Below the pieces are notes generated by a model, which made no database searches, was not told the DNA's origin, and saw nothing but the letters and a program-made list of their open reading frames with translations. Made by a program: the position numbers and the translations under genes. Positions 43,016 to 63,629 of a stretch of 64,000 bases of DNA are shown here, piece after piece; positions within the stretch are counted from its first letter, which is position 1; each line of letters begins with the position of its first letter. Source of the DNA: Ceratodon purpureus (lineage: Eukaryota; Streptophyta; Bryopsida; Pseudoditrichales; Ditrichaceae); NCBI GenBank assembly GCA_014871385.1, contig CM026423.1:22145792-22209791 (forward strand). The letters run 5' to 3'.

Positions 43016-43555
43016 ATGTGCCCCTGTAAATATACACTCATCAAGAAGTCAAGTTGGATTGCTAGTAAAGATAATCCAGTTGGCTACACTTGTTGAATAC
43101 TTTCATAAAAGCAAAGAAAATTATGTTACATTTGCATGTAAACTTGGAAATATTGCTCCATCATTTTGTTGGCAAGTGAGAGTGCAAATCGGAATAAGTC
43201 ACTCGTTGATAACCACCAAGATGTCCAAGGCTTTCTGGTGGCTAATTGACAATAATAATAATAAATTATTAGATTCTTATATGTAATTGGGGATAAATTC
43301 TCTCAATCTCCAACAATCTGCAAGTCTCTACAATACAAGCTATGGATAGATTGGAGCTAAATTACACAGTAAATAAATATGAATAAAGTTGCAGTGGTTC
43401 CACAGCTTAATCCAAACTCTAAATCCTTGCAACAAACACACAACAATTTTGTAGGTTGGCATCCAAATCTTCTGCCCAATAGCTTTTTGAACCCTCTCAT
43501 TCAATCTATTGTACAAGCTCTTTTGCTTTAATGCTAGAAACTTAAGAAGGCAAAC
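43016..43555. other. AT-rich spacer downstream of the CLASP fragment
   Basis: The minus-strand frame of the CLASP exon runs into this stretch but loses family similarity after a CAG|GTTTGC donor at 43,556. A 96-aa plus-strand frame at 42,996-43,286 has no support. Confidence 0.4.
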
Positions 43556-46237
43556 CTGATGATAGATATCACGATCATCTGAAGTACAATGAAGAGCTTG
43601 TGAAAATTCATAATTTGGAGATTTGTGCAAATATGCTTCCGTATAAGTCTTGTGGCCTTCTAGAGGTGATTCATCGCTCCTCTTTGAATCCAAATTCGCT
43701 ATTAGACTAGTTTGTAGTCCTTTAAGATTGAAAGCGTTAGATGCTTTATTGTTAAAATTACCATTAGAAATATGGTAATCTCTGAATTGAGCTTGAAACA
43801 ATTGAATGGTAGAGCTATCATGACTTGCGTAAACTCCATTGCATAGCTCCTTTGTCCTATTACATTCTAAAGTCATTCTAGCATCTTTTGCAACTATTGA
43901 ATCTTGAAGCAGAGTGGGGTGCTTCAGATCATTCAAAGATGGAACTTGATTTCCTAAGCAATGCATGAGCATTCTATTTGTCTTGTTAGAAGTCCGTTTG
44001 CAACCCCCTTCATGAACTGATAAAGCCGTATAGCCACCAATCTCACGGTTGTCACTTGATAATGTTGTCAAAGCCCTACTTGTAATATCCTCAGATCGAC
44101 CTAAAGAAGAATCTATCTGATCAGGTACAAACTTTATCCGTAGGTACTGAATCTTATTTTGGAGATATACCATCAGATCCAAATCAATACGAGGAGTGAA
44201 TTGCTTCAATGCTCTACGAAGCATACTTTGATCTTCAATCGGCAAGCCTAGGATGAAATTCAATACTATAGTTGGATCAAATTGGGAGTAGACATATATA
44301 ATACCCGCAATAGCTGCCTCCCTAAGTTTTGTGTTCTTATCATTAGCTAATGGGGCAAGTTTGCCAAGCCAAAGCCTTAGAAGGCCAGTAGAACTTGTTC
44401 CAGAACCATCTATAGCCAGCTTTGCAAATGCAGATATTGCAAATTCAATAACTGCCATTCTAGCTTTTGGAATGCGTTGCTCGTCCAATGAACGCAGTAG
44501 GGGCAGCAACAAAGTATTAATACAATAAGTATTACCAATGGTCTCCAAGGCCAATAAGCCAAGTTGGCGGATAGTGTCTTTACTATCCACTAGCCTTGCA
44601 AATACTAATGGTAAAGTTCTCTCTAAATATGATTCAAACATTCTTCGACATGTTGGCACAAGCTCAATTAAGGTAGAGAGGGCTGCTTGTGTTACTTTCC
44701 AATGTGGATCGTCTAAGTGTCCTAAAAAAAGCTTCATTATCCACTCAAAATTTTGCGTCACTTCATGTAGTCCTTTAGAACCTTGTTGCAAAAGACTTTG
44801 AATGTATGTAAATGCAGCGATCCTAGCAGACCAATCTCCATGAGTTCCCAAGCCTTCACTCAAAACGTCATTCAAAGACATCAACCCATCCATATAATTT
44901 GATATTTTTCCATGTGGGTTTATTCTTCCTTGTTGGTGATTTTCCTCCAAATTACTACTTTCTGATAACCTTCTTAAACTTGTGTGTTTTTTATTCGTCC
45001 TTTGAGAAAGTGTTCCGGTATTAGAAGATGAATCTGGAATTCTTAGCTCTTCTATGTGATTGTCAGCTATTGAAGTTTGCTTGGTTTCTTTGTTTTGAAT
45101 AATTTCCCTTGAAAGATTGTTCTCGCAAAATATATCCAGACAAGAAAGGACTTGCTTGGCATCTTGGGATCCAAGTGCAATTCCCTCATTTGATGTGTTC
45201 AAAGAAATATAATTGGTTTCTGAATTATTGCCCTCCTCAATCTTCTCTTCTTTGTTAGTCTCTATGCTGGAGTAAGCTTGCATAATAGCAGAAGGGTCAG
45301 CAATATTGTTGTGCTCATATTGTTGCACATTAGATTGTTGCAAATTATGATGACAAATGGCTGGAACAGATGTTTGGTGAGGTGGATCTCGAGTAGATGG
45401 CAAATCAACTATTCCAAGCATTGTACATGGAGATGAAGGTGCATGAATTTCCCGATAGCTACCACCTACTGCAAAATTGATACACACTTGGAGATCAAAA
45501 TTTGAAGGCTGGAATTTTATCAATATTTTTGTGTAGCCTATTTTCTTCAGCATAATACAACAAAGTACTCATGCTTATAATCTATTTCAAACTATATCAG
45601 CCCAAGCAAACATGAGTGATCGTATATACCTAAACAGTCTGGTGCATAAACAACACTCTTAGAGTTATCAACACCTTTGAGCATTATTTCCTTAGCTTTC
45701 AAATGACTAGCTTGAAGCATCTTCTGTAGTTTATTCTTAGGAGGCATGTCAAAAGATTTTCTTTGTAATGGAATTGAAGGATTTGCAGACTCAACAGTAA
45801 GTGCCATACTATTACTCCGTTTGCATGAAATTTCTCCTCCCAAAGCTTGTCCTAAATGAACAAGCATTCCAGAAGATTGCCGCAATTGATGGTTCTGATA
45901 GTCTCCCTCGTCTCGCACAGGCGAAGACATATATCGTGTGTGTACAACTTCTTCATCATGTAAGACCTACAACTTGTAAAATAAAAAGCCATGATTCAAA
46001 AAGTTGCTATGCACTTCACTGGACAATTAAGATTGGTATTCCAATAGATGTAAGAATGTTCATGAATCTAGTAACAAGAATGTCCACCTTTTGAATGGCA
46101 GGGTCAAGTAAAGAATAAACTCGAAGTGCTTGATCTGGGGGAGAGAGTTTCGGAGTGTGCCACTCGGAGTGCGTGTAGACCTGGAAACTGCCAGGTTGTG
46201 TGTCAGAACCGACACGATGATGAAAAAGTGAAAGCAA
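43556..46237 (-). pseudogene. CLASP-family microtubule-associated protein, internal fragment (3 exons)
   Basis: Exon 1 ends at 46,088, exon 2 is 45,966-45,630 and exon 3 is 45,468-43,556; all joins keep phase with GT-AG signals. Landmarks in plant-CLASP order are LLDPAIQK followed by an acidic stretch, SPVRDEGDY, KAKEIMLKGVD and VDLPSTRDPP, then a ~250-residue TOG/HEAT domain in exon 3 (for example GLGTHGDWSARIAAF and NDKNTKLREAAIAGI). CLASP stabilises microtubules at the cell cortex. Only the middle is present: the first TOG domain would lie above 46.2 kb, where block B begins, and the C-terminal domain below 43.5 kb, where repeats begin. It is either a captured fragment or a host gene split by insertions. 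No stop codons interrupt it, so the event may be fairly recent or the piece may be kept. Confidence 0.75.
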
Positions 46238-47173
46238 ACGAAATCACATATTCGTCCAGGACTGAATGAGCTATACCAGTGCTAATCGTGTACATGTACA
46301 GCCGCATACAACGATGATGAAAACCTAATGTATAAATATTTATCATCCAGTACATAATACGTATGTACATACAGAAATACAAACATACGATCCACTACGG
46401 CACAGAATAGACCCATATAATGGATGAACAAATGGATAGAATACAACCCAAACGTGACATAAATAAAGCAGCGATATTCAAAATATCTAGCTAACAATTG
46501 GATAGAGTTTCGTGTGATGTCAATTAGATTCAAAAGAGCATAAATAAAGAGATGTAGGACAGATCCCAAGTGCGCAACCGTCGTAGTTTAATAACCAACA
46601 ATTAATTGATAACATATCCAACACACATACAAGCAAATTGCACCGAAACCTGTACAATATTGAGTTCGCACGATACCAGATCGGATAAAATCACCTCCTA
46701 AAGTGCTTAATCTAGAAAAACTCAACTTAAATCTTCATCTGGCGCCGGCGCCAAATGCAAATGCTAGAAAATATGGCAGCTTCAGGGATGAAGAGCAAAC
46801 ACGAACGCAATCCCACCAAACATATTTGGGAATCAAATCACCAAAGATTCCATCGGATTAATCCAGCGAGGGATACCATACGAATCACGAGATAAAACTC
46901 TGAGTGTGGGAATCAATCAGCCTTATTGGCGCCAGCGCCAGTCGACAATATAGTGAGAAAAGACAAATAATACTGTATCGAACAACAAGAAGAACGTACG
47001 AAGCGACTGAAATTTAAATTTTATAGAACAGGAGGCGTTGGATATTGACAATCAAACATCAATAGTGTTACAACATATCCTGACCTAAACAATACTAACC
47101 GATATAGGGAAGAGTAACTAGGCATCGAAGGAACATTTCCAATGGAGGTACTTCTAGTCGATCAGTCGTCCCT
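46238..47173. other. Left part of block B, two palindromic sites
   Basis: An exact TGGCGCCGGCGCCA at 46,740-46,753 and the variant TGGCGCCAGCGCCA at 46,927-46,940 mark the return of the motif. No gene is seen. The boundary of block B should fall between about 46,240 and 46,740. Confidence 0.45.
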
Positions 47174-47812
47174 TTAAATGTGAGTGAGCTGGAGCTCAAG
47201 TTCCTCCCAGCGGTTGTTGCCAGTTACCAAATATCTTCCAGAACCACGGTGGATCCAACGTTTCGTCTTCTGATCAAGCTGCCAGAAATCGAGAACTTGC
47301 ATACAAAGTAATCCTTTGACCCGCCTCGAAAGAAGTACATGCATTGCGGGCAGAGATTCCCAATTACGATCCAAGTAAAGCGATACCTGGTCGGAAACTG
47401 GCCCAAAACTCCCTCCGCGAATCAAAATTAAGTGAGGGTGATAAGGAAAGTCATCGGCGCTCACTCCATCGCAGATCGATTTCCAGGGGAACGACTCAGC
47501 TGGGCAAGGATCTAACAGCGGTAAAATATCAAATAGAAGCTTCATTAATCTACTTCCGGATAGTGATCGAAACCATCGACAACTCAAGGAGGTATTCGGC
47601 ACAATGGAATCGTGGTTTGGTTCAAAATCAGAGTCGCTACTATCACCTCCCCCTTCATCGGAGACAATCTGCGCGCCAGGGATATAATCAACCCAACGTG
47701 TTGCCATACCAGCCAACAATGCGTCAAATATTGGACCTTTCGTTGGAGGAACCCCAAAGGCTGAGTTCACTAGCAAGGCTGATGGACCATACGTTGATCG
47801 CTTTTCCGCCAT
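47174..47812 (-). CDS. Orphan protein of block B, 212 aa
   Basis: An uninterrupted frame starts at an ATG at 47,812. The N-terminal 50 residues are mixed. An acidic Asp/Ser/Gly linker follows (SDEGGGDSSDSDFE). The rest is a compact, Leu- and Trp-rich domain with DLDRNWESLPAMHVLL-like alternation (here YLDRNWES) and a C-terminus with WIHRGSGRYLV and RWEELELQL. I do not recognise it. It faces the 126-aa gene on the opposite strand; their 5' ends are about 560 bp apart, so they may share a promoter region. It has a size and acidic linker similar to the block A orphan at 8,451-9,104, but I could not align the two convincingly. Confidence 0.5.
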   Translation of the reverse strand: MAEKRSTYGPSALLVNSAFGVPPTKGPIFDALLAGMATRWVDYIPGAQIVSDEGGGDSSDSDFEPNHDSIVPNTSLSCRWFRSLSGSRLMKLLFDILPLLDPCPAESFPWKSICDGVSADDFPYHPHLILIRGGSFGPVSDQVSLYLDRNWESLPAMHVLLSRRVKGLLCMQVLDFWQLDQKTKRWIHRGSGRYLVTGNNRWEELELQLTHI

Positions 47813-48314
47813 CGAACTCACAACTATCCCAAATCAGAATTGCACGAGGTACTGACTGAACAGAGGGCGCTGGTGCAATATGGCCAGACACTTAAAAATC
47901 TCTCACCAAGGTTCAAGATATTAATACTGGCCGAAATAGACAACGTCATAAAGATGACATGCCATGTCATCAAGTCGATCGATAACAATGCATCAAAAGG
48001 TGGTAATGCCCTGATTTTTATTACCAATATATTTGCAAATTCAAACAAGCAAGTATTACAGGTACGTGAGTATGCAGGTTATAAAATTCCATATAAATAT
48101 GCCTAACCTCATTAAGTTCCTCGAAGAAAACATCAAAGATCCAAGCAATATCAACATGTACAGACGAGAAGTGAAAGTGGCGCATCCTCCATTATGGGTA
48201 TTGTTTCCTTGGAAACCGTGCAGTACATACTTTCGGCGCATCCTGGCCACGATCAGTCGCACTTACTGCATAAAAACTAAACCCAACGCAGTGTATACAC
48301 TAGGGCCTAACTGC

Positions 48315-48326
48315 TGGATATAAACT
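48315..48326 (+). promoter_or_regulatory. TATA-like box for the 48,373 gene
   Basis: GATATAAAC about 50 bp upstream of the ATG at 48,373. Confidence 0.3.
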
Positions 48327-48372
48327 CTGGAGTGAAAGCTTAGTCTCCAGAGCTTATATTTCGTCTTTTCAG

Positions 48373-48871
48373 ATGGCAACTCCCAGGAGAAGGTTCCGCA
48401 GGGCTCGGAAGCGGAGGGGTCGCCATGGATTGCACTGGGAAGCGAGACAGAGGGCGAGGAGCAGTGGGACAACTGAAATCGGCTGTTCAGGTACCTTACT
48501 TCCTCTCTTCATATGAGTGTCTCTTCCTGATTTCGAAACCATACTTAGATATCGCTTTGAGTAGCTTGTGCAGATGTCGTGTAAATGAATGTCATGGTGT
48601 TTCTGCAGAATGCACCTGTCTGTGGCATTCGGAATTCCATCGAACCATACCGTGTGCGCCGTGGATACAAAGCATGGAGCGTGCAGAACTAATGAGCCGG
48701 CCCTTGTCTGCCACCGACCTGGCTGTGGAGCAGACGAACTACATTTCAAACCTAGCAACGACGGAGCAAGGCAGCGAAGCAGATACAGAAACAGGTGATC
48801 CAGAAAAGAACTTTGACATGATTTCTAAGTTCTGGGTTGATATAGTGAGTGACACAGACTGTGAGGAGTAG
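48373..48871 (+). CDS. Small two-exon protein, basic N-terminus and acidic C-terminus, 126 aa
   Basis: Exon 1 is 48,373-48,490 (donor TCAG|GTACCT) and exon 2 is 48,609-48,871 (acceptor TTTCTGCAG); the phase-1 join gives one open frame. The first 30 residues are very Arg-rich (RRRFRRARKRRGRHG), a likely nuclear or nucleic-acid-binding segment. Next comes CTCLWHSEFHRTIPC, a Cys/His cluster that could bind zinc. The last 40 residues are acidic (EADTETGDPEKNFD ... DTDCEE). No family is recognised. It lies about 230 bp from the end of the convergent ParB-methyltransferase gene. Confidence 0.45.
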
Positions 48872-49096
48872 TAAGCATTGCACGCGAGACGCAGTGAGTC
48901 GTATATGAATGGGAAAATCATACATTGAGACCCCGAACAGCTCGACTTTCAATCTGACTGAATGTTTGTGTTATTTCTTAAGGCTTAGGGTAACAAATAC
49001 AGTGCACTAAATCTTCTTCAGAAATGTCAATAGAGCAAGTAGGTTTGATAAACAACGTCTTCTACAAACTACAGAGTCATATTCGAAATACCGCCT

Positions 49097-52000
49097 CTAA
49101 TTTGCCATTCCTTGCGAACTACCGCTGAGGGCAGGTTGTACAGTAGGTTGGGAAAATTGACCGTCCAGCTCGGCAAAGTGCTGATGCAAGGATTGCAATC
49201 GATTATCATCGATACCCTTCTCCACGACGCGAGTCACTGGGAATTCATTCAGACACATGTTGTATGCACCGTCGTCATCCTCTAGGGCGAGTATATGTCT
49301 CCCGCTTAGCTCGCAAGCCCGGACAGAGGAACCTGTCAACAACAACAACGTCATTACAAACTGCTCATACTCATTATTTTACAATGTCTTATAATCAATC
49401 AGCAGGGTAACAATTCATAGTTTCTTGACTGAGTCATCTAAGATTACATACCGATACCACCCGTTAGGTCAAGAACAGCGCTCCCTTTCCCAGTGCAGAT
49501 TTCTATCATAGTTTCCATGAATGCCGGGGACTTTTGTTTTGAGCCACGATATGACACTGTCTCTTCGCATCGCAGTAAATTTTCATCCGTCACGACATTC
49601 TCCAGTACATCAGATGATTCAGGATTCCAATCCATCACTTTGCTTGCGATTTCGTTAAATCGGAATTTCATGTGGCTCATGGATTTTCGTCTTAGCACTT
49701 TAGCTTTGAAAAGACGCTTCTGAAGTCAGCACAAACAACACACTTAGGTTAACACCAATGTTATGAAAAAAGAACACTTGCAAAAATGCATGGCAATTTG
49801 ATTAAGTAGGCGACAGGGATAGAGAAGTTTTACCCAGAAGGGGAAAAAAGGCCTGTGGTTGATGACATAGAAGGTCCTCATACATTCCCAGTCGCTAGCC
49901 CACAGCGGAGACATGAGAGTGGGTTGCTCCTCCGCAGGAACAAAAAGCAGAATAAAACCCGTATCGGCTAGAACCGATTCCGCAACATGAAATATGGCTG
50001 GAAATGTGGTCCGCTTAACCATGTTCCACGGTGGCGTCTCAAAATTGCCCATGACTGTGACGTCAGGGACTTCGCTATTATCCGGGGTGTCACAGACAAT
50101 TAGATCGACACAATGCGGGCTCCAAACTCTATTATGCTGCCGAAGCCTTCCACCGTTAATCTACATGAATAAAGGGATTAAGTATTGTTAGAAGTTGAAG
50201 AGAACTTGTCAGACGGCGCTGGCGCCAACTATGAATATTCCGAACTCCACGGTCCATTCGCCTTGACTTATTAGGTTGAATACATAAAAAGTAAACTCGA
50301 TGTTATTTGGCGCCGGCGCCAAGCACGCAATATATGAAGTCGACATACTACCAAATTGTCAATGTCCACCACAAAACTCTAGACTTAGTGCAAAATCTAG
50401 ACAAAGTACTCTGTACACGAAATTGCATATTCCAACATACAAGTCTACACTACCTTCGAGAATGAAAGTTCATTGTGCTCACGATACTGAGTAGGCTCTA
50501 CAAGAGATAAGTCATCCTAGGGCTGGAGAGATCCAAGCTACGAACGGCGCCGGCGCCAGCATAAAGAAAATGATGACACCATCCTCCATTCGAAGAATGA
50601 TTCTTAAACAGCAACCCTAAAGTCCATCGACATCCGAGTCTATGCGAAAAGAAACTAAATATGACGGGTAAAATAACAAGCGTATAAGAGGCTGTTGGCG
50701 CCAGCGCCTTCAACTGCAACATTCTCCGACCATACCATGCGACCTGAGTTATGATACTCCAATATAAAAGGGGATCCAAATGTTATGTTACAGTTACATG
50801 AAGGACCTAACTAACTAAGTCTTAGAGAGTTTACTGATCATGAATAAGCCAAAGATTGAGACCGATTGTAGGATTTGAGCCTCATGCTTAAAAAGTCGTG
50901 AGTCTTAAAATACTGACCAACCGGACAGAACCAAATTATTGTGCGAAGTACCTGCTTGATCGCGCCCAAGAATGTAAAAAAATCCGACGGCTTCATCCCT
51001 TCGACAAATTTCTCGAAGGCAAACTTCATGGATAGTTTTACAGTCGGCGCAACGCCCTCAATCTTCAGTGCTTCGTATTTTCCAGGCAACGATCGAGCAG
51101 GATCTGATTTCTGGATCTTCTTCCCAGATTTTGAGGATTGCTTACGGTGAGACGTGCCGGTCTCCGAGGTATTCGGGTGAGGCTCAACATTAACCGGGAC
51201 CTCTTGCACGATTTTCTTTGGCCTGAGATTATGAAGGTGACCACCACTGCGACCCTCCCGATCAATGCTGCCGCTTTCTTTATCGTGTTCCTTGTAAACT
51301 GGTGCGCTACCATTCATACCCTCAACTTCCGCAATAACACCTGAAACGATACCACTAGCATCCTGAACCTGCGATAGAGACCCCTGGACCTCCTTCCCGG
51401 TTTTGTGGGCAATCATTTCCTGCAGCTCATGAAACATTACGGGAACGTAATGAGCGACGGAAGTCCAAGAGTTAGATATAGGAACGTACACTTTGTTTTG
51501 CCTACCCGACAACGCAGAAAGCAGTGTAGAGGATGGAACTACCGTGTCGCTATCTCCTGATTCCTCGTCGCTCTTTGACTTCACGAGTTCTTTAATCTCT
51601 TCAAGTGTCGCGTCGAGAGCCTCTGCCTTTTCCAAGAATGATGCCTTATCTAGAGCTTCAATCTCCTTGAGCACGCAGCTATGAACGGCCTCATCATTCA
51701 CATCTATGAACCCCTGTACATCCAGAACGTTTTCAATGTACCATCCGAATCCTTTAAGATGCGGTGGATCGAGTTTTAATATCTGCTCCTCCGTGTAAGC
51801 CCCATCTTCGGAGATCCGGAGCCAGTCAGCAAATACGGGAAACTTAGTAATATCCCCGGTCTCCCTGGGAAGCAATCTAGTTGTCTCGCATATCCAGCGA
51901 ACAAACCTCATTAGAAACCGCCGGACAGCCTTCTCTCCTAAGTTGTAGTTTGTCTGATCCTTCCAGCACCTATGCCGAACAGGGCCCCCCTCAGAAGTAA

Positions 52001-55000
52001 AGATCTCTGGAAAAAAATTCTGAAATCCGAAAACCATAACCTTGTCAAAGTACTCGTCAAAGTGAGGACGAAGATCAGTGGCATTAATAATTCCAATTCC
52101 CTTCTCTGGTTTGGATTTAGTGATCAAATCCGCAAGTAATTCGAATGCCCTGGTGGCCATCTGCGTCAAAACGGGTACAAATCCAACATCTCATCAAATC
52201 ACAAAACATATATTTAGCATAGCAATAATTCTTAGAAAACTCTCTTCGCTTACCATACAACATAAATGCGATATGAACGACCTTTATGTTACGATGACCA
52301 AACATTTGCATATTAACATAAATTAACTATAAGGCAACTACTTACAAGACTAAGAGCCGTAAATTAAACCAGAGGTACATCATCTTTCCTAAGTGAGCTA
52401 CCTGAGGCCTACCTGCTCCCACCAAGCCCTGCGATTCAACCACTTCTGAAATGCTGCCCTCGTAAAATCCAAGTCTGGAAAGTGATACCGCTCTTTATCA
52501 GCAGATGACCCATTCCAGAGCTTCAAGACTGTATGAATGTCCACCCCTTGTGCCCCTACAAGAATGTTGAGGTTGTCGATAGTCATCGCACCTGACTTCC
52601 TATATGGTGCCCGTGTGTGAGCATCGAGTTCATCAGCAAGATGGGGGTGGTATTTAGGATTGCAAAGCCTGAAGATCTTCTTCATGTAGTCTAATTTTTC
52701 TTTTCTTATATTTTGTGCGCCTTCAAACTTTGCTTTTTCAATCTGCTGAGGCGATGGATATTTTACTTCTTCCTTCAAGGCCTTCACTCCTTCTCGCTCT
52801 GCCAATGTTATCTCACGCTGCGTTGACAGACACAGAAGAGTCAGAACCTTCGAATACATCACAAGCCTAGCAAACATACGAAACAAATGAATGAACAATC
52901 GCCATTATAGGATACTAGCCATTTATTTATACAAATAGTCATGTAGAACCAGAGTTAGTCCATCAGCATAGCGAATGCTCAGTATTCGATATTCAGGAAG
53001 TTGAAATATAGACGCCACGCCTTGACATTGTCTGATCAAGAACTTTCTGAAACTAAACAACTGTAGACGCAGCAAAACTACGAAACGATCTGTGGACGCG
53101 CAAGCACTGGCTAATGGATAAAGGCTAAAAGATCAATGAACCAAAGTAACTGGGCTAGGTAAAGTTTCAGATATCCAGAATGAGCATTATTCAGATAGTG
53201 ATACTAGACAGAGTAATTCAGCATTAAATTCAACAATATTCCTCCAACTGAATAAGCTTATGGCGCTGGCACCATTTGCCCCTCGGGTGGGGATATCGAG
53301 CACTGACTTATAAGCAGATCATAGTGATTCAGAAAACCAGCATTTCTACTGGAACACATAAGCATGAGCACTAGGCATTAGGACAAAATTCTAATTAGCA
53401 GCATGACAAGTCCGATTGGTAGATTAAACAAGAAAACCGATCGATGTCTAAATGAGCTGTATATTCAGATAATGAACAGAAATTATAGTTCGAGATGTTT
53501 GAAATGCACTTGTTGTATTTCTAAATAACATGCTATATACAAAATAATTCATGGGCATCGGCAAACTAGAAGTAAGGCAATCTTAAGACTCACCTTAAAA
53601 TAAACCTCGGTTACGGCGTCGCAGGTCATCTTGTACCACCGCCCTTTGCAGACATCGTTGATTCTTGTCATCTCCTCATCAGTAAAATAGTGGCTATATT
53701 CCTTAGGATCTCTCTTCGCGATTTGCATAACCTCATACAGTACATGGGCGAGCTGCTTCTTAACGGTTGTGTTCGAGGTCCCACTGTTGCAATCAAGTCT
53801 AACTAAGGTCAGATACAGCTCCCAATGAAGCGAAAAAAATAAACTATTACTGCCTACTCATGTACGAGGTCACATCGTGATCCCAGAAACGCTGCATCTA
53901 ACCACCATATATGCAGCTTGTAATTAAAGAATATGCACTTACTCATTTATGTCGCGCATAAAATTTGATATCCAACCACGATCTGCTTCAGTGTCGTTTA
54001 AGACGAAGCAGCTTACTTTTATAGGGTCTCCGTTGTTCTCGCTAATGTGCCTCATCCATGCTAGAGCACGATGGTTGCCATCCCAGACATGCACGTACTG
54101 ACCAATAATTCTCTCGTACGTAGCTTTGTGCTCGGGATCGCTAGCGCATAGCTCCACCAAATCAGCATCGAATTCATCAGATATAGATTGCCACCTCTCC
54201 AAGTCTTCGAAACCTTCCTCTGGAAATTTTCCTGGGCTGCCGCAACAAGTGACCCAGAAATTAGTACCCCAGTTCCCGATATGGAAACCATCATAAACTG
54301 TCTGCACATCAGCCGGTAGAGCTTGTCGAACCCATGTGGTGGGTTTAAGCCGACACAGCGGAATCTCTAGGCGCAGAGGTATAATCTTCTGTATCTCCAA
54401 GTGCTTGCGGATATTAACTTGACTAAACAAAGTCTCCTGAAAGCTCTCGAAGGATGTCACAGTTGGATTGGGATTTTCGCTCCGTTCGATGGTCATCTCA
54501 AACCCTTCCTCGTTCGGAGGCTCCTTCTCGCCAAAGTCACGTTCAGCAGCACTGAGAGGCTTGTCAGCATTCTGTTTAAGCATAAATAGAGAACAGATTA
54601 GCTAGGAATATCAAAACGATAATAATCTTGCCACGACATGAGGTTTAAGAATATGGTACCATAAGAACTTAAGCATGCAAGTATTTGCATGAACGATTTA
54701 TACCATGAGAATTACAAGAAGTAACAAGCACATGCGAAGTAAGCATAGAATGGAATAGGCAGCAAAAGAGGCGAACACGGAAAGTATGAACAAGACCGCC
54801 AAAAGGATCTCCGGGAGAAAAACCATTTACATAAACTAGACTGAAAAGATGAAACCAAACGGCGCCGGCTCCCTTTGCCTGAATTCGTAAGGCATTCAGT
54901 TGATTTCATATATGTCTAAGAAAGAGTGAAGTAGAGTCGGGGATTCAGAACATAATATTAAACGCACATTCAGGGATCCTACTGGCGCCGGCGTCTGATG

Positions 55001-56489
55001 AATATCAGACATTGCAGCAATTAAACCGAGTGAAGCTGCTGGAGTCCTCAATGCACGATAGGTCAAAAACCATGTCTGCCCACTCAAGTCCTCTTAAGTA
55101 ATCGTGTTAAATTTACAATATCAAAACATGGGCAACTGCAACAGGGTTAGGAAGCAATGAGCGCCGGCACCATCTGACTCCAAAATCCAAGAATCTTTTC
55201 TATACTAATAGAGGCGAATCCAACAGAACATCACAATATCAAATGCGAGATATACTTGGAAATCCTTAACGAGACCATGGCAAAAAAACCCCTTAGAACC
55301 TTACTGAGGAAAGATAATCCATTAGAAGCTGTGTCGTCCTGTAACTGGATCTAACTACTAGGACCCACAAGCCAAGATCACTGGAGTCGACGAGTTCCAA
55401 GCCATGTCTGCCCTCGCAAGTCCATTCCATTCAACAAGATAATCCAAATAAATCATAACAAGTTCTCGAGCAGGTTGATGAGAAGCCATTCCGCGCCGGC
55501 ACCATCTGACACCCGTGGTATGTGCAACCATGCGACTTCAACCAAGTGTCCAATACTGAATTTTCTATACTAATGGAGGCTAATCCAACAGATCACTATT
55601 AAATCAAGTGCGAGATATTAAACGGGTTCTAGGCAAAATACAAGTTACAGCACATTGTTTGAGAGAGAGAGTAATCCCACCGGGTGTGTCGTCCTATAAG
55701 TTCAATAGCTCTACACGATTCTCAAGCCTCATGAAGGCTGGACCCTAAACGCAAAATCGAGATGGTGCGGACTGCAAAATACGAAAAGTTCCATGCGGAC
55801 TGCAAAACACCATGTCTGCCATCCCAACATGTCTTGAGACAACCAGATAGAATAAAATCGACGGCTAACAAAATATATACGAGGGCTCCTGCTCCTTTTC
55901 GACGTTTCCGAGCCGGCACCATGTGACTCAAACAATGTCGTGCCTAAGCTCTGTGCAGGTATGGGACTATCCTCGACGGAAAGAATTGAAGAAAAATCCA
56001 TGGAGCACGCAAAACGGGATCTTGGCGAAAAAAGACTTTCTACCTGAGCTGTGTTGCATACAAATTGTAAATAACTACAGGAATCACAAGCCTATTACAC
56101 CGCATATTAAGATCTGAAATAGCACCAACATAGACTTGCAGAAATTTGACCCAACGATGCATTTGAATAAATTCCTCTACATACGTGCGAGTTCTCACTT
56201 TAATCCTTCGAAAACATACCCTAATCAAAGAGCTGTCGCCAGCGCCATGTACCAAACGAAAACCCAGAAAGCCGAAAAGGCTCGAAATAATCCAAGAATC
56301 GCATACCTCATCTCCGACCCAAAGCGAAAACGACCCCGCCTTCTTCTTCTTCTTGAGCACGCCGCCCTCGGAGTCCGAACCGCGCTTAGACTTGCCCATG
56401 CTTGCGTACGATCCACTGCCCGAACCCCTAGCAGCGGCGGATCCAGAAAGAACTGCGTCGAGGAGCGATGGCGCAGACAACATGTTCAC
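49097..56489 (-). CDS. ParB-like domain fused to beta-class DNA methyltransferase, 8 exons, 1,148 aa
   Basis: Exons (minus strand) are 56,489-56,307, 54,571-53,943, 53,783-53,594, 52,817-52,413, 52,160-50,952, 50,160-49,834, 49,719-49,452 and 49,332-49,097. Every donor is GT, every acceptor AG, all phases agree and no stop occurs. Residues 1-61 are Ser/Gly/Lys-rich with a KKKKK nuclear-type signal. Residues about 110-260 resemble the ParB/sulfiredoxin fold, with VWDGNHRALAW (D225-R229). The central ~400 residues are charged and of low complexity. The C-terminus has the order motif IV then motif I expected of beta-class N4-cytosine/N6-adenine methyltransferases: VDLIVCDTPDN (D896-N900) and VLDLTGGIGSSV (from 1063) followed by GRHILALEDD. 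Motif IV is normally (D/N/S)PP(Y/F/W); here it is DTPD, with TPPW 18 residues on, so catalysis is uncertain. ParB-methyltransferase fusions are typical of bacteria and phages. It is divergent from the transposase at 57,064. Confidence 0.75.
54960..56000. repeat. Diverged repeat array inside intron 1 of the ParB-methyltransferase gene
   Basis: At least three units, beginning near 54,984, 55,161 and 55,494 with a partial one at 55,908, share in order a GCGCCGGC(A/G) word with CATCTGA, TTTTCTATACTAAT, GAGGC.AATCCAACAG, GTGCGAGATAT, GTGTCGTCCT and CCATGTCTGCC. Each unit starts with a decayed form of the palindrome. The array accounts for much of the 1.7-kb intron. Confidence 0.65.
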
Positions 56490-57063
56490 CTCTTATCTAA
56501 AAAAGACCCGACTAATGAAGAAAACCAAGAGGTATAGTTACACCAATAAGAATAGTCCACGATCATGACACGAGTAAGAGGGCACGAGAGAGAGGTAATG
56601 GTGACTGTGAGGATTGGGTCAACTGAGGTGCTTCTATTTATACTTGACCGGGAATTATCCACGCGTCTTATCGAGGTCACAGAGTTCCGTTGAAACAAGT
56701 TTCTCATCCGTTGAAGATTTAGATCGGCAGGTGGAGGACGTTAAAGATTTCGGCTAAATGTTACTGTTATAGACTTCGTTGCGATACTTAAATTTTCCTA
56801 ATCACATTTTGACGGCTACGGATTAATAAGTTTGAATCCGACCGTTTACATGAGCACTTTTGTGATTACACGCCATATCTAATGGATAATCCCGTTGTAA
56901 TCTGTTGAACAAACTCCATTTAGAATTTGTATAGAACATTGACCATTCCCAGTCGATCGACGTCACTTACACCTGAGGATTTAGTTCTCGAAGCCATCAC
57001 CTCCAGGTCTGCCCGAAATATTAGTTACAACTCCCGTGGTTATTGTATGTCTAAAGTTGAGAA
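56490..57063. promoter_or_regulatory. Bidirectional promoter region between methyltransferase and transposase genes
   Basis: Only 574 bp separate the two divergent start codons. On the minus strand, TATAAATA (56,633-56,640) lies about 145 bp upstream of the ATG at 56,489, a plausible TATA box. I see no equally good TATA box for the plus-strand gene. No palindrome copy lies in this interval; the nearest is the variant at 56,235. Confidence 0.5.
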
Positions 57064-60000
57064 ATGGCGCATACCAGTAAGATGATTTTACGCTTAGCAG
57101 GGGAGCTTTCACATTTGAAGTATTCGTCAACCGAAGCAGATATAGAAATTCCAGAGCTAGAACTCGTCTTGGCCTTCGGTTTGCAAGAGAGCACCATCCA
57201 CGTTAAGCAAATAGATATGCAGGGTGCGTTCAGGGGGGATTATTGGCCCAATGAGAAAGATGGTCAGTCTAGATTTAGTTTGCCAGTTCTTGATGGTGCC
57301 TCGTTCATTGTATTTGGTGAGAAAAATCTCGATCCCTCACGGGTTAAGACTGCAGCTGGTATTGTTGCAAGAACACCCATACCACTAATTGAGCTAGACG
57401 ATTCATCTGACGACACAAATAGCACGAGTAGCCAGATGTCATTTCACAGCAACGAGTTACAAGGTACAACTTTAACATCGCATGTTCCCGATCGGCTGGA
57501 AGATTATCCAATTGAGCGAATTGACGACACGCCAATTCATGGTGGCCAGTCTCCTAGACTAACATCAAGACCACAAGCTGGAGATGGATTCGCCCCATCG
57601 ACAGGACTTAGAATCGAATCCCCAGAGGCTCATATGGAGGGCCCGTCATTGCTCGACACTGCATGCGCATCAACACCCAGTCTTGACAACAATGAAGGCC
57701 ACGAGATAGAGGATATATCGTACCCGAGTATCCATGGAGCGAAGGTTGTCACCGCAGCGGAGGAAGACTCCACTTTACCAGGTAGTCGGTCCATACTACC
57801 CCTTTTAATGGGCTTGGCACTCCGGGGATGTACAGGGGAGTTAGCATTCTTGCCATTCGCTGATTATGAAAAGACCAAATGCAATTATCTTCCGATGGCC
57901 TATGATGGTAACATTATTTTTGAACTCCCACCGTTGATAGACGATGATACAATCTCAACAGACATTTCTTTTGATGGTCATCCCTGGGTGAAGTCGAATA
58001 GTTATAAGTCAAACCTCATCGAGGATGCAGGCCTCCGTGTCCGGAAATCGTTCTGTGGTGGTTCCTTCATTTGCAGAAGTCCAGAATGCGGCCACCTCAC
58101 CCTGCATGGGACACCGAACACGCTTTTTTGGGATGGCCGATGCCAGGCCAAGCCGAAAGCAGGAATAGTCCCAATTGATGGTGATTGGAGGTGCTCGTTT
58201 TGCCGGTGGACTCCTACTTGTGTGTCGCAGTGCTCCTGCATACTATGGGTCATTCACCACGAGTCTGACCTCTACACTCGAGCAGTTGTTCATACTGGCA
58301 GACATTCCCATCCATCACCTCCCGGGAGAAGTCGGGAAGCATACGCCAACATGACAGTCACCATCCAGAAATACCTTGACAAAAACCCCTGGCTCATGGA
58401 TGCGCCAGGTTGGGTTGGGTTTCGTTGTGCTCATAGGAATTTCCTTGATTTGATAATGCACACAACCACTGTTGAGGAGCAAGAATTTTTGACAGAATCG
58501 CAGCTCAATGAGATTCTTGAAACTGCTCCACCATACCACGACAAAGGACGGGTTAAATATGTTGTGACGAAATTCAGATCTGACCAAGAGCGCTGTATTT
58601 TTGCTCTGAAGAAATACTCACGATACAGCTATATCCAAGACAGCCACTTTCCAGGTCAGTCCCACAATGGAATTAAGTTTGTGTTCAAAATGTCAACTGT
58701 GGGCGTAGGAAGCGGTGTTGCCATTGTGCAAAGGATGACATCTGGGGATCTCAAAGATTCATTTATTATGTTTGATCATATCAAACGTGTTAATTTGTGG
58801 ACAACAATGGCCGCGCACGTATATGACCACAACATTGGTAGGCTGCTTACCATAGCAGTTTGTGAGATGAAACTAGAGAACACGGAAAACCAAGTGAAGT
58901 TTTGGGAGCTACTGATAGAGACTGTAGTTCATAGTGGTCATCCTCGTCCAAAGTTCAAAGGATTTATGGCCGATGCAGCTCCAGCAAATTATAACGCAGT
59001 CAAAAAGGTCTTCGGCCATTCAGAGGGATTGGATGGCATCGTGGGGGACGAGGAACCAGTTCTTAACCCGAATGATCCAATCCTTCAAACATGCTACTTT
59101 CATTTTGTTCAAAGTATTCGCGATCATACGAACAAGTGGGTACATGAGAAGTACCGCACTCACCACGTAGAACTGTGTAAGCGATGGGCAGCTGCACCTA
59201 CCAATGAGGAATTTCGGGAAATTGCGTTTGAACTTGAAGAGTTCTGGACTAACTCAGGAGCTGTGCATAAGGACAATCTTCGAAATATGATGGCATGGAT
59301 GACATGGTGGATGGCAAGGCGCACTCTCTTTGCATATCATCATCTCAATGAACTTGAGCTCGACCTCGAGAGAGAAGCACTGGTGCCTAATACAAATCTC
59401 TGTGAAGCAGTCCATAGTTCGATGTGGGCAACTTCGGCAAGCGGATTCAAAGTGAAAATGGATTTGTATACCGTATGTGCGGAAGACATGACTAGATCGT
59501 TACTCCAACAACAATTCTGTTTGGCTGCTTCTAAGGGACTGTTGCGAGGCACCGGTCCATCGAAGGCCGAGTTGATGTGGCGGAACGCAGCCAGGTCTCA
59601 TAAACCTGAGCGGGTTGCCCTGGCAGTGAAGGCAGCTGTTGAGGGTACGCCGTTTCATTCTCGTGGTATGGGGTTAGAAGGGGATTTGGACCGCACTCAG
59701 AGTGTGAGATGTCAGTCTCGACCAGGAAAGCGAAGAATGGCACGATCTCATAGACCAGATAAGGATAGCCGAAGCATAAGACCTCCTCTCAGACATCAAC
59801 CACCAAGATATAAGAACTCGCACGACCAAGATATACCGCAAGCTGGTTTCGAGGGGTTTGAGTCGAATCCAACACCTAATCCGGTGACCCAGGCAGAATT
59901 CTCATTCGCTACTCCATCACCACCTCAAACATTTCAAAGGAATCTGTTTGACTCTTCTCCAGTGTCCAGGTCGCATTTGCGGCAGGATTCAATACAGGAT

Positions 60001-61575
60001 CGACGAAGCAACGATCCTATTTCTGCAATGGCGCCAGCGCCAACCAACCAGCCAAGTACCTATCGGCCTTCTCCAGCTTTTGAACCATTTCAAGAGAACG
60101 TCATGGCGCCGGCGCCAAGACAGGTCCCAATGAACTCAAGCCCGTCACAGTTGTACCAATCGCAATTTCAAACTTCACCAACACACTATTTTTCTGCCGA
60201 CATTGATCGCGCACATGGAGAGACCTCTCGTACCCCATTCAAGGATAACTTTTCACAATCAGAGACATTCCAGTATCAAGAATCAATTCCATGTGTGGGC
60301 ACAGCGGCGTATCCAGCCTTCGCCAGTGAGTACTCTTTTCATGATCCTGGTACAGGTTTTAACAGTCCATCCACTCCTTACCAGAGCCAAGTTCAAATGA
60401 GTTCATCACGAATAGGTCTGAGAAGCCCTACCACGCCTTACCAGAGCCAACCACTTATGCATACTTCAAGTACAGGATTTGTTACTCCATCCACTCCGTA
60501 CCAGAGCCATCTCCGAATGCAACCATCTGGTTACGAGGTCAATCGCGATGTCCACAACGGAATTCAGAGCGTCCTTTCTCCCCCGATGCAACGGAGTGAC
60601 GGAACCAGGGTTCCGCGACAGCCACAATATCAACCTGCAGTACCAGATCCAACTCATGGCAGGCAACTATCACAAGCTTTCCAGTTTGGTCTGCCTATAG
60701 TCGAGAAAGAGACCGATCACAAGAACTGGGCTATCCGGAGATGTCTTCCAAATGAAAATCCGAGATGTGCAGCAGTTATACGTCGCAATGGTCAGTGGGA
60801 GATGTGTGGGCGGAATATCAAAGCGCTGCCTGATGCGAGCAATGCAGCCCCAAGTTTTTACGGCACTATGGAGCAGGGTTACAAAAAAAGTTTTCAAATC
60901 TATTGGTTTTGCGGAGCTTCTGTGCGAGGATGTGTATCGACCGACCATGTCCAAATGCTTCGGGGAGGAAAGCCCCCACCTTTACCAAGGGTTTGGCCAG
61001 TTGAGACGGGTACGAAGTTGTCGGCGGAAGAGGCGAATTCGCTAGGAAGAGGAGGATTTGCCCTTGTAGAGAAATACGGGGACCCATTGGTCGGCCAGGG
61101 TGATAGGTCCCAGAGATATCATACGGACGTCAGTACTCCAGCTAAATCATCGCCTCAGGACCCTCTAAAGAGACCATCACGGCGTTGTGGGAAAAAAGTG
61201 AATCGAAGGTCCTTGACTGTGGCAGGGGAGACTCGAAGGAAGGAGGGCTTAATGATGACTGCCCAGGTGCAGCTGTTGAGTGAGGATCAAGCAACAGGAA
61301 CATACCGATTCGGTCTGAATACCATATCTCGAACATTCAACAAACCGGTATGCTATATCGTCACCATCAGTGACACACCTGCCTGTAACTGTCCATTCTT
61401 TGTAAGTAGTGTGGCTGATAGCAAAAATGGTTACTATTTTATGACGTGTAAGCACATGTATCATGTTTACAACGTAGTCCTGGGATTGCCATTGGAGGAC
61501 GAGAGGCCTCATCAAGCAACATTGAGTCGAGAGGAGGTAGACGAGATAATGAGAAGGTGGAACAGCATGCGCTAG
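57064..61575 (+). CDS. Mutator-like (MULE) transposase with extra zinc clusters, 1,503 aa, intronless
   Basis: A single 4.5-kb frame. Residues 1-320 are a folded start followed by a Ser/Thr/Asp-rich linker. Residues 331-415 are a Cys/His cluster (CGG, C..C, W.GRC, WRCSFC, CSC, HTGRHSH) like the WRKY-GCM1-type DNA-binding fingers found in MULEs. The MULE catalytic core has D571 (FDHIK), D637 (MADAAP), a CYFH box at 677-680 and E781 in NLCEAVHSSMW, all present. Residues about 880-1200 are Pro/Gln/Ser-rich with three TPYQS repeats. A four-Cys cluster is at C1235, C1248, C1283 and C1290. A SWIM finger (CNC at 1441, CKH at 1462) ends the protein. Most plant MULE transposases are about half to two thirds this length. 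Two palindromes (60,028 and 60,103) lie in frame and encode MAPAP. All catalytic residues are intact, so it may be active or domesticated. Confidence 0.85.
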   Translation: MAHTSKMILRLAGELSHLKYSSTEADIEIPELELVLAFGLQESTIHVKQIDMQGAFRGDYWPNEKDGQSRFSLPVLDGASFIVFGEKNLDPSRVKTAAGIVARTPIPLIELDDSSDDTNSTSSQMSFHSNELQGTTLTSHVPDRLEDYPIERIDDTPIHGGQSPRLTSRPQAGDGFAPSTGLRIESPEAHMEGPSLLDTACASTPSLDNNEGHEIEDISYPSIHGAKVVTAAEEDSTLPGSRSILPLLMGLALRGCTGELAFLPFADYEKTKCNYLPMAYDGNIIFELPPLIDDDTISTDISFDGHPWVKSNSYKSNLIEDAGLRVRKSFCGGSFICRSPECGHLTLHGTPNTLFWDGRCQAKPKAGIVPIDGDWRCSFCRWTPTCVSQCSCILWVIHHESDLYTRAVVHTGRHSHPSPPGRSREAYANMTVTIQKYLDKNPWLMDAPGWVGFRCAHRNFLDLIMHTTTVEEQEFLTESQLNEILETAPPYHDKGRVKYVVTKFRSDQERCIFALKKYSRYSYIQDSHFPGQSHNGIKFVFKMSTVGVGSGVAIVQRMTSGDLKDSFIMFDHIKRVNLWTTMAAHVYDHNIGRLLTIAVCEMKLENTENQVKFWELLIETVVHSGHPRPKFKGFMADAAPANYNAVKKVFGHSEGLDGIVGDEEPVLNPNDPILQTCYFHFVQSIRDHTNKWVHEKYRTHHVELCKRWAAAPTNEEFREIAFELEEFWTNSGAVHKDNLRNMMAWMTWWMARRTLFAYHHLNELELDLEREALVPNTNLCEAVHSSMWATSASGFKVKMDLYTVCAEDMTRSLLQQQFCLAASKGLLRGTGPSKAELMWRNAARSHKPERVALAVKAAVEGTPFHSRGMGLEGDLDRTQSVRCQSRPGKRRMARSHRPDKDSRSIRPPLRHQPPRYKNSHDQDIPQAGFEGFESNPTPNPVTQAEFSFATPSPPQTFQRNLFDSSPVSRSHLRQDSIQDRRSNDPISAMAPAPTNQPSTYRPSPAFEPFQENVMAPAPRQVPMNSSPSQLYQSQFQTSPTHYFSADIDRAHGETSRTPFKDNFSQSETFQYQESIPCVGTAAYPAFASEYSFHDPGTGFNSPSTPYQSQVQMSSSRIGLRSPTTPYQSQPLMHTSSTGFVTPSTPYQSHLRMQPSGYEVNRDVHNGIQSVLSPPMQRSDGTRVPRQPQYQPAVPDPTHGRQLSQAFQFGLPIVEKETDHKNWAIRRCLPNENPRCAAVIRRNGQWEMCGRNIKALPDASNAAPSFYGTMEQGYKKSFQIYWFCGASVRGCVSTDHVQMLRGGKPPPLPRVWPVETGTKLSAEEANSLGRGGFALVEKYGDPLVGQGDRSQRYHTDVSTPAKSSPQDPLKRPSRRCGKKVNRRSLTVAGETRRKEGLMMTAQVQLLSEDQATGTYRFGLNTISRTFNKPVCYIVTISDTPACNCPFFVSSVADSKNGYYFMTCKHMYHVYNVVLGLPLEDERPHQATLSREEVDEIMRRWNSMR
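60028..60117. repeat. Two palindromic sites inside the transposase coding region
   Basis: ATGGCGCCAGCGCCA at 60,028-60,042 and ATGGCGCCGGCGCCA at 60,103-60,117 are both read in frame as Met-Ala-Pro-Ala-Pro in the Pro-rich linker. The first differs from the consensus by one synonymous base. Confidence 0.95.
60355..60540 (+). repeat. Three-copy protein repeat (SPSTPYQSQ type) in the transposase
   Basis: Three ~60-bp units encode SPSTPYQSQ, SPTTPYQSQ and TPSTPYQSH, spaced about 20 residues apart in the low-complexity linker. Confidence 0.9.
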
Positions 61576-62534
61576 TGTAAGAATTTCATTATATTCTTCG
61601 ACGACATAGATATGGCGCGGGCGCCAAGTGTGCACCTATTCTAATGAATGTCAAGTACTTGATCATTCTTAATGTAAATCGTCGAAGTTACATATAAACT
61701 ATCTATTTGAATCAACCATGGCTGTGGTTGCAGCAGTTCACTTACGTTTCAGGACATCTCAAGGTTGATTAAATACGTTTCCTCTCGTTGATGCACAATT
61801 ATATCCCGCTTTATACAGTGCAACGTAAGAGTGCTATTGGTAATATTTTGGAATTTCTATAATACTTGCATTACTTGAAAGTTCTACTATATCCTAGGAG
61901 TTGATCATAAGAATGTAAAGTCGAAAGCCAGCATGCAATCATAGTGCAATTGTGGGTTATTATATTATTGACAAAATTCCATATAGTGTATAATTCATGA
62001 ATTTTCAAAATGGGAAATACACTCCTTCTCAGTGGCCCGAACTGAATCTACAAAACTACCACTTGCTTATCTCGATTCAAGCGAGGAATGGCGCCGGCGC
62101 CATTATGCATCCACTCGGTGTAAACGGCATTCTCGTTGAACTCTCCCTCAATTGAACCGTCGCAGCCTCTTCGTAAATACCTCGGGATTTTCGGCATTTC
62201 TTTTAGATTCGCTTTCATGAAGAGAGAAATTTATATTGGAGGTTATCTGACAAGGTTACGATCTGCAATAAAGAAGTTTATGATACAGCTCTTACACTTG
62301 GCGCCGGCGCCGCAACACCATTCTGCGAGGAGTAATGCATGATAATTTTGAAATCTTACCCTGCATTAAACGAAGCGCCTCTCCTACTCTGCAATGTATA
62401 TAACCATCGGCCTGGTTATCATGAAATCACAACTCTCTATTTAGCGTGCAATCGTATAGCGGAGCTATTTGCCTGTGTCCTCTCTTTTTGATTAGAAACT
62501 ACAGTGTTAGCTTGAAGGTTCAGTTTCCTTAGGG
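61576..62534. other. Intergenic region with three palindromic sites
   Basis: Variant ATGGCGCGGGCGCCAA starts at 61,612, exact ATGGCGCCGGCGCCAT is at 62,088-62,103 and TGGCGCCGGCGCCG at 62,299-62,312. TGTATATAACC at about 62,395-62,405 is a good TATA box, 132 bp upstream of the ATG at 62,535. Confidence 0.6.
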
Positions 62535-63629
62535 ATGTCGGGTGGGGCTCAACTGAACGTTAGTCCGCGGGTGCGCCCGTCTAGAGTTTCAGCAATTCTG
62601 GCTCACAAATGCCGCCTTGCGAACGAAGCTAGCAGGAGTCTTAGTCTCGGCGAAGTGCGCGAACGCATGTTGAGGGACGAGTTGGTTTTAGAGACTCCTT
62701 CACTTCCTGCGGAAGGTGAAGGCTGTAGTGAGTTGGCAGAGCTTGAGGAAGTTCTCCGTGATGTTCACCATCGGTATGAGCTTTGTGCCCACTCTGTGAA
62801 GGACGCAATTTCGCAAGCAAAGAATATCGATGCGACCACCGTAGACCTCGAGGTTCGGAGCGAGACTAGAGCAAATCTCATTGACCTTCGCGAGAAGATG
62901 TTTGAGCTCAGACAGGAGCGCTCCCGTGCTGAAACCAACCTACGCAACCATGCTGGCTTCAATGAATTTAATTCGCTGCTAGCTCTCCTGCTAGAGGCTG
63001 AGCGTGAGTCATCATTTCTTCGTGAGGTCCTAGAGGAGCTCCAGGCAGAAAACGATATGGTCCTGGAGACTCTCAATAGCTACGCAGAGCACACTCAGCT
63101 GAAAGTGTCCGGCGGATACACAATCCGAGAGTGCCTGTGCCGGATGATGGTCGGAGATGCGAAATGTGCGACCAACGGTTTTCTCCCGCCAATGAAGTGC
63201 AGATCTCACCTTGTGGCCACTTCTATCACTTATTCTGTCTTGCCATTCGAGTTGCAATTTATCCAGATTGTTCTCGGCAATCCTGCAGAGAACCATTTCC
63301 ACCTTGCTGGCTGCGAAACTACGGATTTCCGTCTATGGTTGAGTCGGATTCTAGCACGGATGGCTCAAGTGACACTTCCTCATCAGGTGGCTGCAGCAAA
63401 CGTGCGATTCGATGCTTGTTTAAAACATTCACATAATTATCGTAGTATATTTCTTATGTGTCACTTCACTTCGTGATTAAACTTTCCTGTTGTATTAACA
63501 GACGATGACAGTCCAAGCAGCGACTTCAATCCCACTGCGACTCAAGAAGGAGATCCAGATAAGATTGCCATGGACAATGGAGATTCTCCTCCAACAAATT
63601 TGACAAAGCGCCGGAGAGTTCAACGCTAA
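62535..63629 (+). CDS. Coiled-coil protein with RING-H2-like finger, 2 exons, apparent frameshift
   Basis: The first frame (62,535 to about 63,100) gives a basic start and a Glu/Leu/Arg-rich coiled coil. The second frame (open from 63,080; splice donor after 63,386) gives CEMC...SPCGHFYHLFC...CSRQSC, a RING-H2-like pattern, then CWLRNYGF and a Ser/Asp stretch. A donor TCATCAG|GTGGCT and acceptor TATTAACAG lead to exon 2 (63,502-63,629) in phase, ending KRRRVQR, a likely nuclear signal. The two frames overlap at 63,080-63,130 and need a one-base shift or an atypical intron (a GTGAGT donor at 63,004 with an AG at 63,131 would fit but would remove coiled-coil codons). The RING and WL-x-x-F/Y-GF tail match the block A gene at 13,027; the N-terminal module of that gene is absent. 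Possible ubiquitin-ligase role is inference. Confidence 0.65.

Follow-up and report, generated by a model that had tools for sequence, protein, structure and literature searches.

We analyzed a 64,000-nucleotide stretch of the moss Ceratodon purpureus (GenBank assembly GCA_014871385.1, contig CM026423.1, positions 22,145,792 to 22,209,791), hereafter the window, and found that an eight-exon gene joining a ParB-like N-terminal part to a methyltransferase-fold C-terminal domain belongs to a giant DNA transposon, which also carries a transposase gene and is strewn with a 14-bp perfect palindrome, TGGCGCCGGCGCCA. Tentatively, we propose that this accessory protein is a sequence-specific self-recognition factor that would bind the dispersed palindromes of its own giant transposon. 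The coordinates of all features are collected in Table 1.

The gene is read from the minus strand, and its eight exons splice in phase, as the initial annotation had claimed, with a frame open across seven introns that all have GT-AG borders. The earlier exon set was retained, while the start at position 56489 and the product of 1,148 amino acids (aa) were abandoned: that position is an upstream GTG, and the first in-frame ATG at 56483 gives 1,146 aa. The window protein shared 84% identity over 94% with Ceratodon purpureus M758_11G066700 (P0001, 1,084 aa), the sole relative returned by a protein search in which 8,000 candidates were scored, and protein searches returned only P0001 and five short ENA fragments. 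Exon 5 of P0001 matched four loci of the window's own genome at 97-98%, and exon boundaries 2/3 and 5-8 recur in diverged gene copies. This comparative evidence, P0001 together with the recurring boundaries, supports the predicted exons 2-8. Exon 1 contains a lysine-rich stretch that represents a putative nuclear signal; neither the exon nor the signal, which had been put forward initially, has comparative support, because P0001 begins beside exon 2. The five fragments (P0002-P0006) are short proteins from small ENA contigs that match the methyltransferase domain, some of them reading into introns. Among them, P0006 contains CDTPDN, and P0002 is by eye nearly identical to one of the genomic copies (L062). 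These fragments are likely moss DNA within environmental data.

The gene had been placed in a transposon-like block, and this block is indeed mobile, with inverted repeats and 9-bp duplications, but it makes up the left portion of an element that is far larger. The block recurs 70 kb upstream of the window copy, in another copy of the element. Window positions 1-23380, considered at one point as a separate, different element, were shown to be the right part of this upstream copy. The two copies on contig C3 are 99.9% identical over 2,457 bp from 46138 and 100% identical over 4,215 bp inside the gene, which points to recent transposition; in the 108-bp overlap at the window's end they are 94% identical with small gaps. 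The terminal inverted repeats are imperfect; each end of the upstream copy contains the core AGTTTCGGAGTGTG, 14 bp long and perfect. Genome-wide, the end motif with at most one mismatch was found 17 times in forward and 15 times in reverse orientation, compared with 0 for the reversed control. Half of these motifs (16/32) form eight pairs spanning 47.1-62.7 kb, and the other 16 are unpaired. A perfect 9-bp target duplication was present in all seven copies with both flanks read, namely the upstream copy and six pairs, and in these other six pairs the end core has at most one mismatch. The second copy, that of the window, is known at its right end by coordinate alone, and its target duplication stands outside this tally. 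A 9-bp target duplication and terminal inverted repeats are features of Mutator-type transposons (Mutator-like elements, MULEs), and on these marks the family is classified as Mutator-type giant DNA transposons of 47-63 kb, present in the moss in many copies. Window positions 1-6000, inside the giant element, are very AT-rich (21-25% GC), and since five other copies are of about the same length (47.1-47.6 kb), this AT-rich stretch seems to be integral to the element. A viral origin was also rejected, as two pattern scans of viral contigs gave no confirmed relative, which is weak evidence.

The transposase gene lies head-to-head with the ParB/methyltransferase gene. Its product gave no match in Pfam at E<=1, a weak match to IS256 in NCBIfam (E=0.18) and no match as a query against the protein database. 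The genome searched (G000; 362 Mb, 151 contigs), for which whole-genome counts are lower bounds, contained 31 scored transposase loci, and the main match was without an internal stop in 24 of them. The methyltransferase domain gave 195 genome matches; the 150 listed represent at least 81 loci. Contig C6 (110 Mb), which is probably a sex chromosome of the moss, carries 38 of them. A head-to-head methyltransferase domain was found within 16 kb at 30 of the 31 transposase loci; at the one remaining locus the domain, also on the strand opposite the transposase, sits on the other flank at a distance of about 13-14 kb from the match. In an earlier tally with the whole protein as query only 22/31 loci were linked, because that search missed diverged copies. 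The initial suggestion of an intact, intron-containing methyltransferase fold of prokaryotic type in a plant mobile element is thus supported by the inverted repeats, the 9-bp duplications and this linkage. The annotation of P0001, a hypothetical protein on a Ceratodon chromosome and nothing more, would suit a domesticated host gene standing beside transposons by chance; this explanation is hardly credible, being contradicted by the at least 81 loci, by the element ends and target duplications around the gene, and by two nearly identical copies on one chromosome. The transposase of the upstream copy (C3:22132467) appears truncated: its match ends at residue 1,131 and its open frame has 1,179 aa rather than 1,504, though the copy is otherwise nearly identical where compared.

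Selection was measured as the ratio of nonsynonymous to synonymous substitution rates (dN/dS) by the Nei-Gojobori method, with pairs that share lineages and are not independent. In diverged pairs, dN/dS was 0.09-0.12 for the ParB exon (five pairs, dS 0.8-1.5) and 0.18-0.24 for the transposase (four pairs); for exon 5 it was 0.17-0.33 in nine pairs with dS >0.15, and a tenth pair, with internal stops in the partner, gave 0.38. In close pairs (dS <0.06), exon 5 had 0.11-0.40, the transposase 0.26-0.38 and exon 2, in a single pair, 0.15; dN is 0 in one near-identical pair. The L024 exon-2 comparison (wrong strand) and two identical-copy pairs without a ratio were left out. Selection on the gene is purifying; compared with the transposase, constraint is stronger on the ParB exon and about equal or weaker on exon 5. 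Internal stops in some copies (L016, L019 and L026) would suit a gene that is carried along or decaying and of no use to the element, but dN/dS is well below 1 in all valid diverged comparisons, with the ParB exon below the transposase, and the gene accompanies 30/31 transposase loci, so that we consider a mere passenger very improbable. These results show that the gene is an accessory of the element, kept by selection together with the head-to-head transposase.

The C-terminal domain was compared with the Pfam family N6_N4_Mtase (PF01555; cut-off 26.7 bits). The whole proteins remained under this cut-off, with 22.0 bits for the window protein and 24.1 bits for P0001. The C-terminal 328 aa of P0001 alone scored 27.0 bits, and C-terminal pieces scored 27.0 and 27.7. 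With exons 6-8 spliced from diverged copies, all nine aligned C-termini matched the family at E<=0.01 (best 3.8e-8). A Flavobacterium phage methyltransferase aligned over 99% of the 212-aa domain query with 24.6% identity (E=7e-6), and motif I, which spans the exon 7/8 junction (49452/49332), follows motif IV in the beta-class order. The domain can accordingly be classified as a genuine relative of the beta-class N6/N4 methyltransferases, and the profile check on which the initial annotation had staked this part of its claim came out in its favor. Of the motifs read at the outset, the order was upheld, and motif IV is corrected: DTPD stands there in place of the canonical catalytic tetrapeptide DPPY.

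Motif IV reads CDTPDN in 25 of the 27 loci examined in this family of at least 81 loci, that is, in 18 of the 20 loci showing the stretch and in all seven further diverged loci. The two exceptions, CDTLDN and CNTLNN, both occur in copies with internal stops; L009, without exon 6, was left out of the tally, and L022 is without exon 8. The place of motif IV is fixed by DpnA and RsrI, and DTPD departs from the canonical pattern [DNS]PP[YFW]. The DpnA alignment also offered TPPW as an alternative motif IV, which was rejected, as diverged copies keep only P-x-W-N there. The aromatic residue of motif IV stacks on the flipped base, and an aspartate sits where this residue normally is. Either the ordinary transfer to N6-adenine (N6A) or N4-cytosine (N4C) would have been lost, or the chemistry or substrate would have changed. 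DNA modification by the protein, as supposed initially, is doubtful, since no examined copy free of internal stops keeps the canonical catalytic motif.

We therefore weighed whether an active N6A or N4C methyltransferase could mark the DNA of the element, perhaps at the palindromes, to evade silencing or to steer the transposase. The fold is that of a real N6_N4_Mtase relative, motif X (RGSKQK) is invariant among the copies examined, motif I is largely kept, and the domain is among the better conserved portions of the protein; the same idea has been published for the brown alga Ectocarpus, in the passages available (PMC12477816). Yet the altered tetrapeptide is general outside the two copies with internal stops, the phage and planctomycete/bacterial relatives retain DLPY at this position, and several subfamilies have alanine in place of the motif I glycines, which makes active methylation an unlikely explanation. 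The methyltransferase search also revealed another subfamily, apparently recently expanded, with seven loci of near-equal methyltransferase score and 67% identity to the query in exon 6.

In the N-terminal part, exon 2 encodes a motif of the DGxHR type, which is the nucleotide-binding motif of the ParB/sulfiredoxin fold. The ParB domain was matched neither in Pfam (ParBc) nor in the PDB sequence search. The ParB-like partition family of PHROG gave a weak match on the right residues (best E=0.074, three of four members) and was outscored by a PHROG family of unknown function (E=0.003). A structure model of P0001 made without an alignment had a predicted local distance difference test score (pLDDT) of 34. 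On motifs and weak matches, we hold with moderate confidence that the N-terminal part is ParB-like; of the ParB-type fusion announced at first, the GNHR motif was recovered, as DGNHR in four of four aligned copies, and profile searches gave at best a weak match. The Wolbachia phage WO record had no annotated ParB or methyltransferase feature in the two stretches listed.

The palindrome was then counted; neither it nor the 47-kb size of the element and its recent duplicate had figured in the initial annotation. With up to three mismatches, the window contained 33 matches, compared with 0.64 expected and a maximum of 5 in 100 shuffles. These sites are hundreds to thousands of bases apart and not tandem, and all 10 palindromes within the ParB/methyltransferase gene are intronic (chance 0.002). 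The 22.8 kb between the two copies (23381-46137) contained no exact palindrome and one with up to three mismatches, and the CACTA element had no exact site and a single one with two mismatches. For the upstream element the exact sites total 13, of which 4 were counted on the nearly identical left part of the window copy, and L034 adds five more sites, two of them exact. Genome-wide, 793 exact palindromes were found, and none for a reversed control of the same composition. Fifty of the exact sites were listed, every one on contig C1. For 47 of the 50, one of five methyltransferase loci is no more than 50 kb away, and the zone so defined covers 1.7% of C1. Decay of the palindrome mainly by CpG deamination was rejected, with only 11/37 mismatches being CpG transitions (the overlapping match at 22340 omitted). 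Given this distribution, the palindrome may be the means by which the protein recognizes its own element.

In the mechanism that we favor, the ParB-like N-terminus and the methyltransferase-fold C-terminus would bind TGGCGCCGGCGCCA in the introns and intergenic DNA of their own element. Occupancy of the palindromes would keep the chromatin of the element open or mark the element for its own transposase, and the role would be akin to that of the Arabidopsis VANC anti-silencing proteins. Since DTPD stands in place of DPPY in all examined copies that are free of internal stops, ordinary N6A/N4C catalysis was probably lost or altered in the methyltransferase fold, a replacement that is observed and a consequence that we infer. 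The mobile unit, the linked genes, the selection and the concentration of palindromes at the element loci are observed too; the binding to the palindromes and the protection or marking of the element are likewise inferred.

Alternatively, the palindromes could serve the transposase (or the coiled-coil/RING-like gene) as sites of binding or synapsis, with the ParB/methyltransferase protein acting elsewhere, for example on host chromatin factors. The palindrome co-occurs equally with the transposase and with the ParB gene, because both genes travel together. Subterminal transposase repeats are usually gathered near element ends, whereas the sites here occur along all 47 kb, both intronic and intergenic, and do not cluster near the ends; moreover, of the segments measured, the ParB exon is under the strongest constraint. 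We regard such transposase sites as rather improbable. In a parS-like system, by analogy, the ParB-fold protein would load at the 14-bp palindromes and spread as a clamp over the 47-kb element, shielding it from host silencing and telling self from host, with the methyltransferase fold repurposed as a module reading DNA or S-adenosylmethionine (SAM); this version we also consider doubtful.

Several observations weigh against self-recognition by the accessory protein. For three of the 50 palindromes listed, every listed methyltransferase locus is far away, 2 of the 17 palindromes of the second copy are coding, inside the transposase open reading frame (ORF), and the palindrome also stands beside a locus (C1:27.65 Mb) with an exon 5 that shares just 42% identity with P0001. 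The palindrome binder could instead be the transposase or some other protein of the element, and conservation of the domain outside motif IV would fit altered catalysis as well as lost catalysis. Recognition of the ParB type is unproven, because Pfam and PDB do not recognize the domain. The CpG ratio, tried as a sign of escape from methylation or silencing, was discarded, because the neighboring CACTA element has the same ratio. Finally, VANC targets diverge quickly and form tandem repeats, and the moss palindromes do neither.

The remaining genes of the window are listed in Table 1. The frame 63080-63433, which overlaps the coiled-coil ORF of the second copy, shared 35% identity over 57 aa with the product of 13237-14652 (E=9e-9). 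By eye, the latter (minus strand) and the ORF at 33404-34896 (plus strand), beside the CACTA transposase, are organized alike, with a brief stretch of similarity ahead of a coiled coil, and such ORFs may be an accessory gene that unrelated moss transposons have in common. The CpG ratio was 0.34 at window positions 42000-46000 and about 0.87 in the surrounding transposons.

Table 1 Features of the window (positions counted from its first nucleotide) and related loci elsewhere in the genome
Feature	Position	Strand	Basis or remark
ParB-like/methyltransferase-fold gene	49097-56483	-	1,146 aa; spliced open frame, P0001 identity, boundaries recurring in diverged copies
Gene exons 1-4	56483-56307, 54571-53943, 53783-53594, 52817-52413	-	Spliced frame
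Gene exons 5-8	52160-50952, 50160-49834, 49719-49452, 49332-49097	-	Spliced frame
DGNHR, ParB-like motif, exon 2	54068-54082	-	Sequence read; invariant in 4/4 aligned copies
Beta-class N6_N4_Mtase-type domain, exons 6-8	49097-50160	-	Pfam PF01555; Flavobacterium phage methyltransferase match
Motif-IV position, DTPDN (canonical DPPYN)	50077-50091	-	Alignment with DPPYN of DpnA and RsrI
Single-exon transposase gene	57064-61575	+	Head-to-head with ParB/methyltransferase gene; MULE-like, C-terminal SWIM-type zinc motif by eye
Left part of second element copy	46138-64000		C3:22191929 onward; right end motif C3:22241681-22241699, outside window
Left terminus (inverted repeat) of second copy, GGGGAGAGAGTTTCGGAGTGTG...	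46138-46172	+	Identity with upstream copy starts exactly at 46138; core recurs as paired ends
Right part of upstream element copy	1-23380		C3:22121544-22169171, 47.6 kb; right terminus and target duplication
Right terminus of upstream copy, inverted repeat GAGGTAGTAGTTTCGGAGTGTGTCACT	23354-23380	-	End-motif reads
Target-site duplication of upstream copy, 9 bp, ATTGGCACT	23381-23389		Match runs to 11 bp; partner precedes left end of copy, outside window
Palindrome TGGCGCCGGCGCCA, second copy	46740-62312		Pattern scan; 17 sites (4 exact; <=3 mismatches)
Palindrome TGGCGCCGGCGCCA, right part of upstream copy	8354-22942		Pattern scan; 15 sites (7 exact; <=3 mismatches)
Coiled-coil ORF, further element gene region	62511-63473	+	Overlapping frame 63080-63433 related to C-terminal part of 13237-14652
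Coiled-coil protein gene with RING-like cysteine cluster (by eye)	13237-14652	-	No Pfam match
Further element ORF, 219 aa	47174-47833	-	ORF read
CACTA/EnSpm element between giant copies	27741-31333	-	Transposase_21 (E=2.3e-67), DUF4218, DUF4216
TOG/HEAT-repeat protein ORF, probably host gene	43343-45568	-	Domain match
Seven loci of expanded subfamily	C10:12824258, C4:10528970, C6:40236973, C8:11125054, C33:30000, C6:103717067, C8:12965063		Methyltransferase search

ParB-like/N4-N6 methyltransferase proteins have been reported in transposons of brown, green and red algae, for which self-binding and self-modification were proposed, with no target site named in the passages available (PMC12477816). 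According to the same passages, the protein of Sola1-1_Ec32 in Ectocarpus is of similar size (1,104 aa, compared with 1,146 aa in the moss), also combines a ParB-like part with an N6/N4 methyltransferase domain, and is encoded on the strand opposite the transposase in a giant DNA transposon (PMC12477816). The new kind of transposon strategy claimed initially was too strong a statement, such counterparts in algal transposons having already been reported there (PMC12477816). Compared by description only, the moss system differs from the algal ones in its Mutator-type element of 47-63 kb, its land plant host, its many copies, its altered motif IV and a palindrome dispersed genome-wide. In the open-licence literature, outside which most subscription journals lie, we came upon no earlier description of such a protein from a land plant, of a Mutator-type element carrying one, of a candidate site or of the altered motif. 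The giant moss element, its palindrome and the altered motif appear to be new, and the kind of protein was already known from algae.

The size of the element matters in itself, as DNA transposons of 47-63 kb are seen here to move as single units in a land plant; fungal Starships are larger. Smaller sizes have been given elsewhere, in the passages available, with up to 7 kb for Pack-MULEs, 16-20 kb for enlarged EnSpm elements and about 31 kb for KDZ (PMC6431247, PMC12477816).

Fusions of the ParB fold to N6_N4 domains are described, in the part of the source consulted, as more frequent in phages (PMC12704722). The beta-class N6/N4 methyltransferases of phages and bacteria share with the moss protein a common fold and motif order and align over the whole domain; they carry DLPY or DPPY, whereas the moss protein has DTPD, plus introns and a long middle region. 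Retrotransposons carry methyltransferases as well, Dam-like ones in DIRS elements and cytosine enzymes in dinoflagellate and charophyte elements, and these resemble the moss case as DNA methyltransferases on eukaryotic transposable elements; they belong to another transposon class and other enzyme families, and the passages available mention no ParB-like part (PMC5890265). With the catalytic motif changed, methylation by such proteins is not to be assumed. Selection on the gene and a candidate target that is abundant, associated with the element and absent from the control would make transposon self-recognition testable with one protein and one oligonucleotide.

The VANDAL elements of Arabidopsis are Mutator-like. 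Their VANC proteins, in the passages available, bind short motifs in the noncoding DNA of their own elements and remove silent marks (PMC10398659), and like the moss gene they combine a transposon accessory protein with short motifs in the noncoding DNA of the same element (PMC10398659). The moss palindromes differ in being single and dispersed, not tandem, and in persisting beside a diverged locus, and no Pfam match hints at kinship between the proteins. By analogy, VANC would be the nearest functional model for the moss protein.

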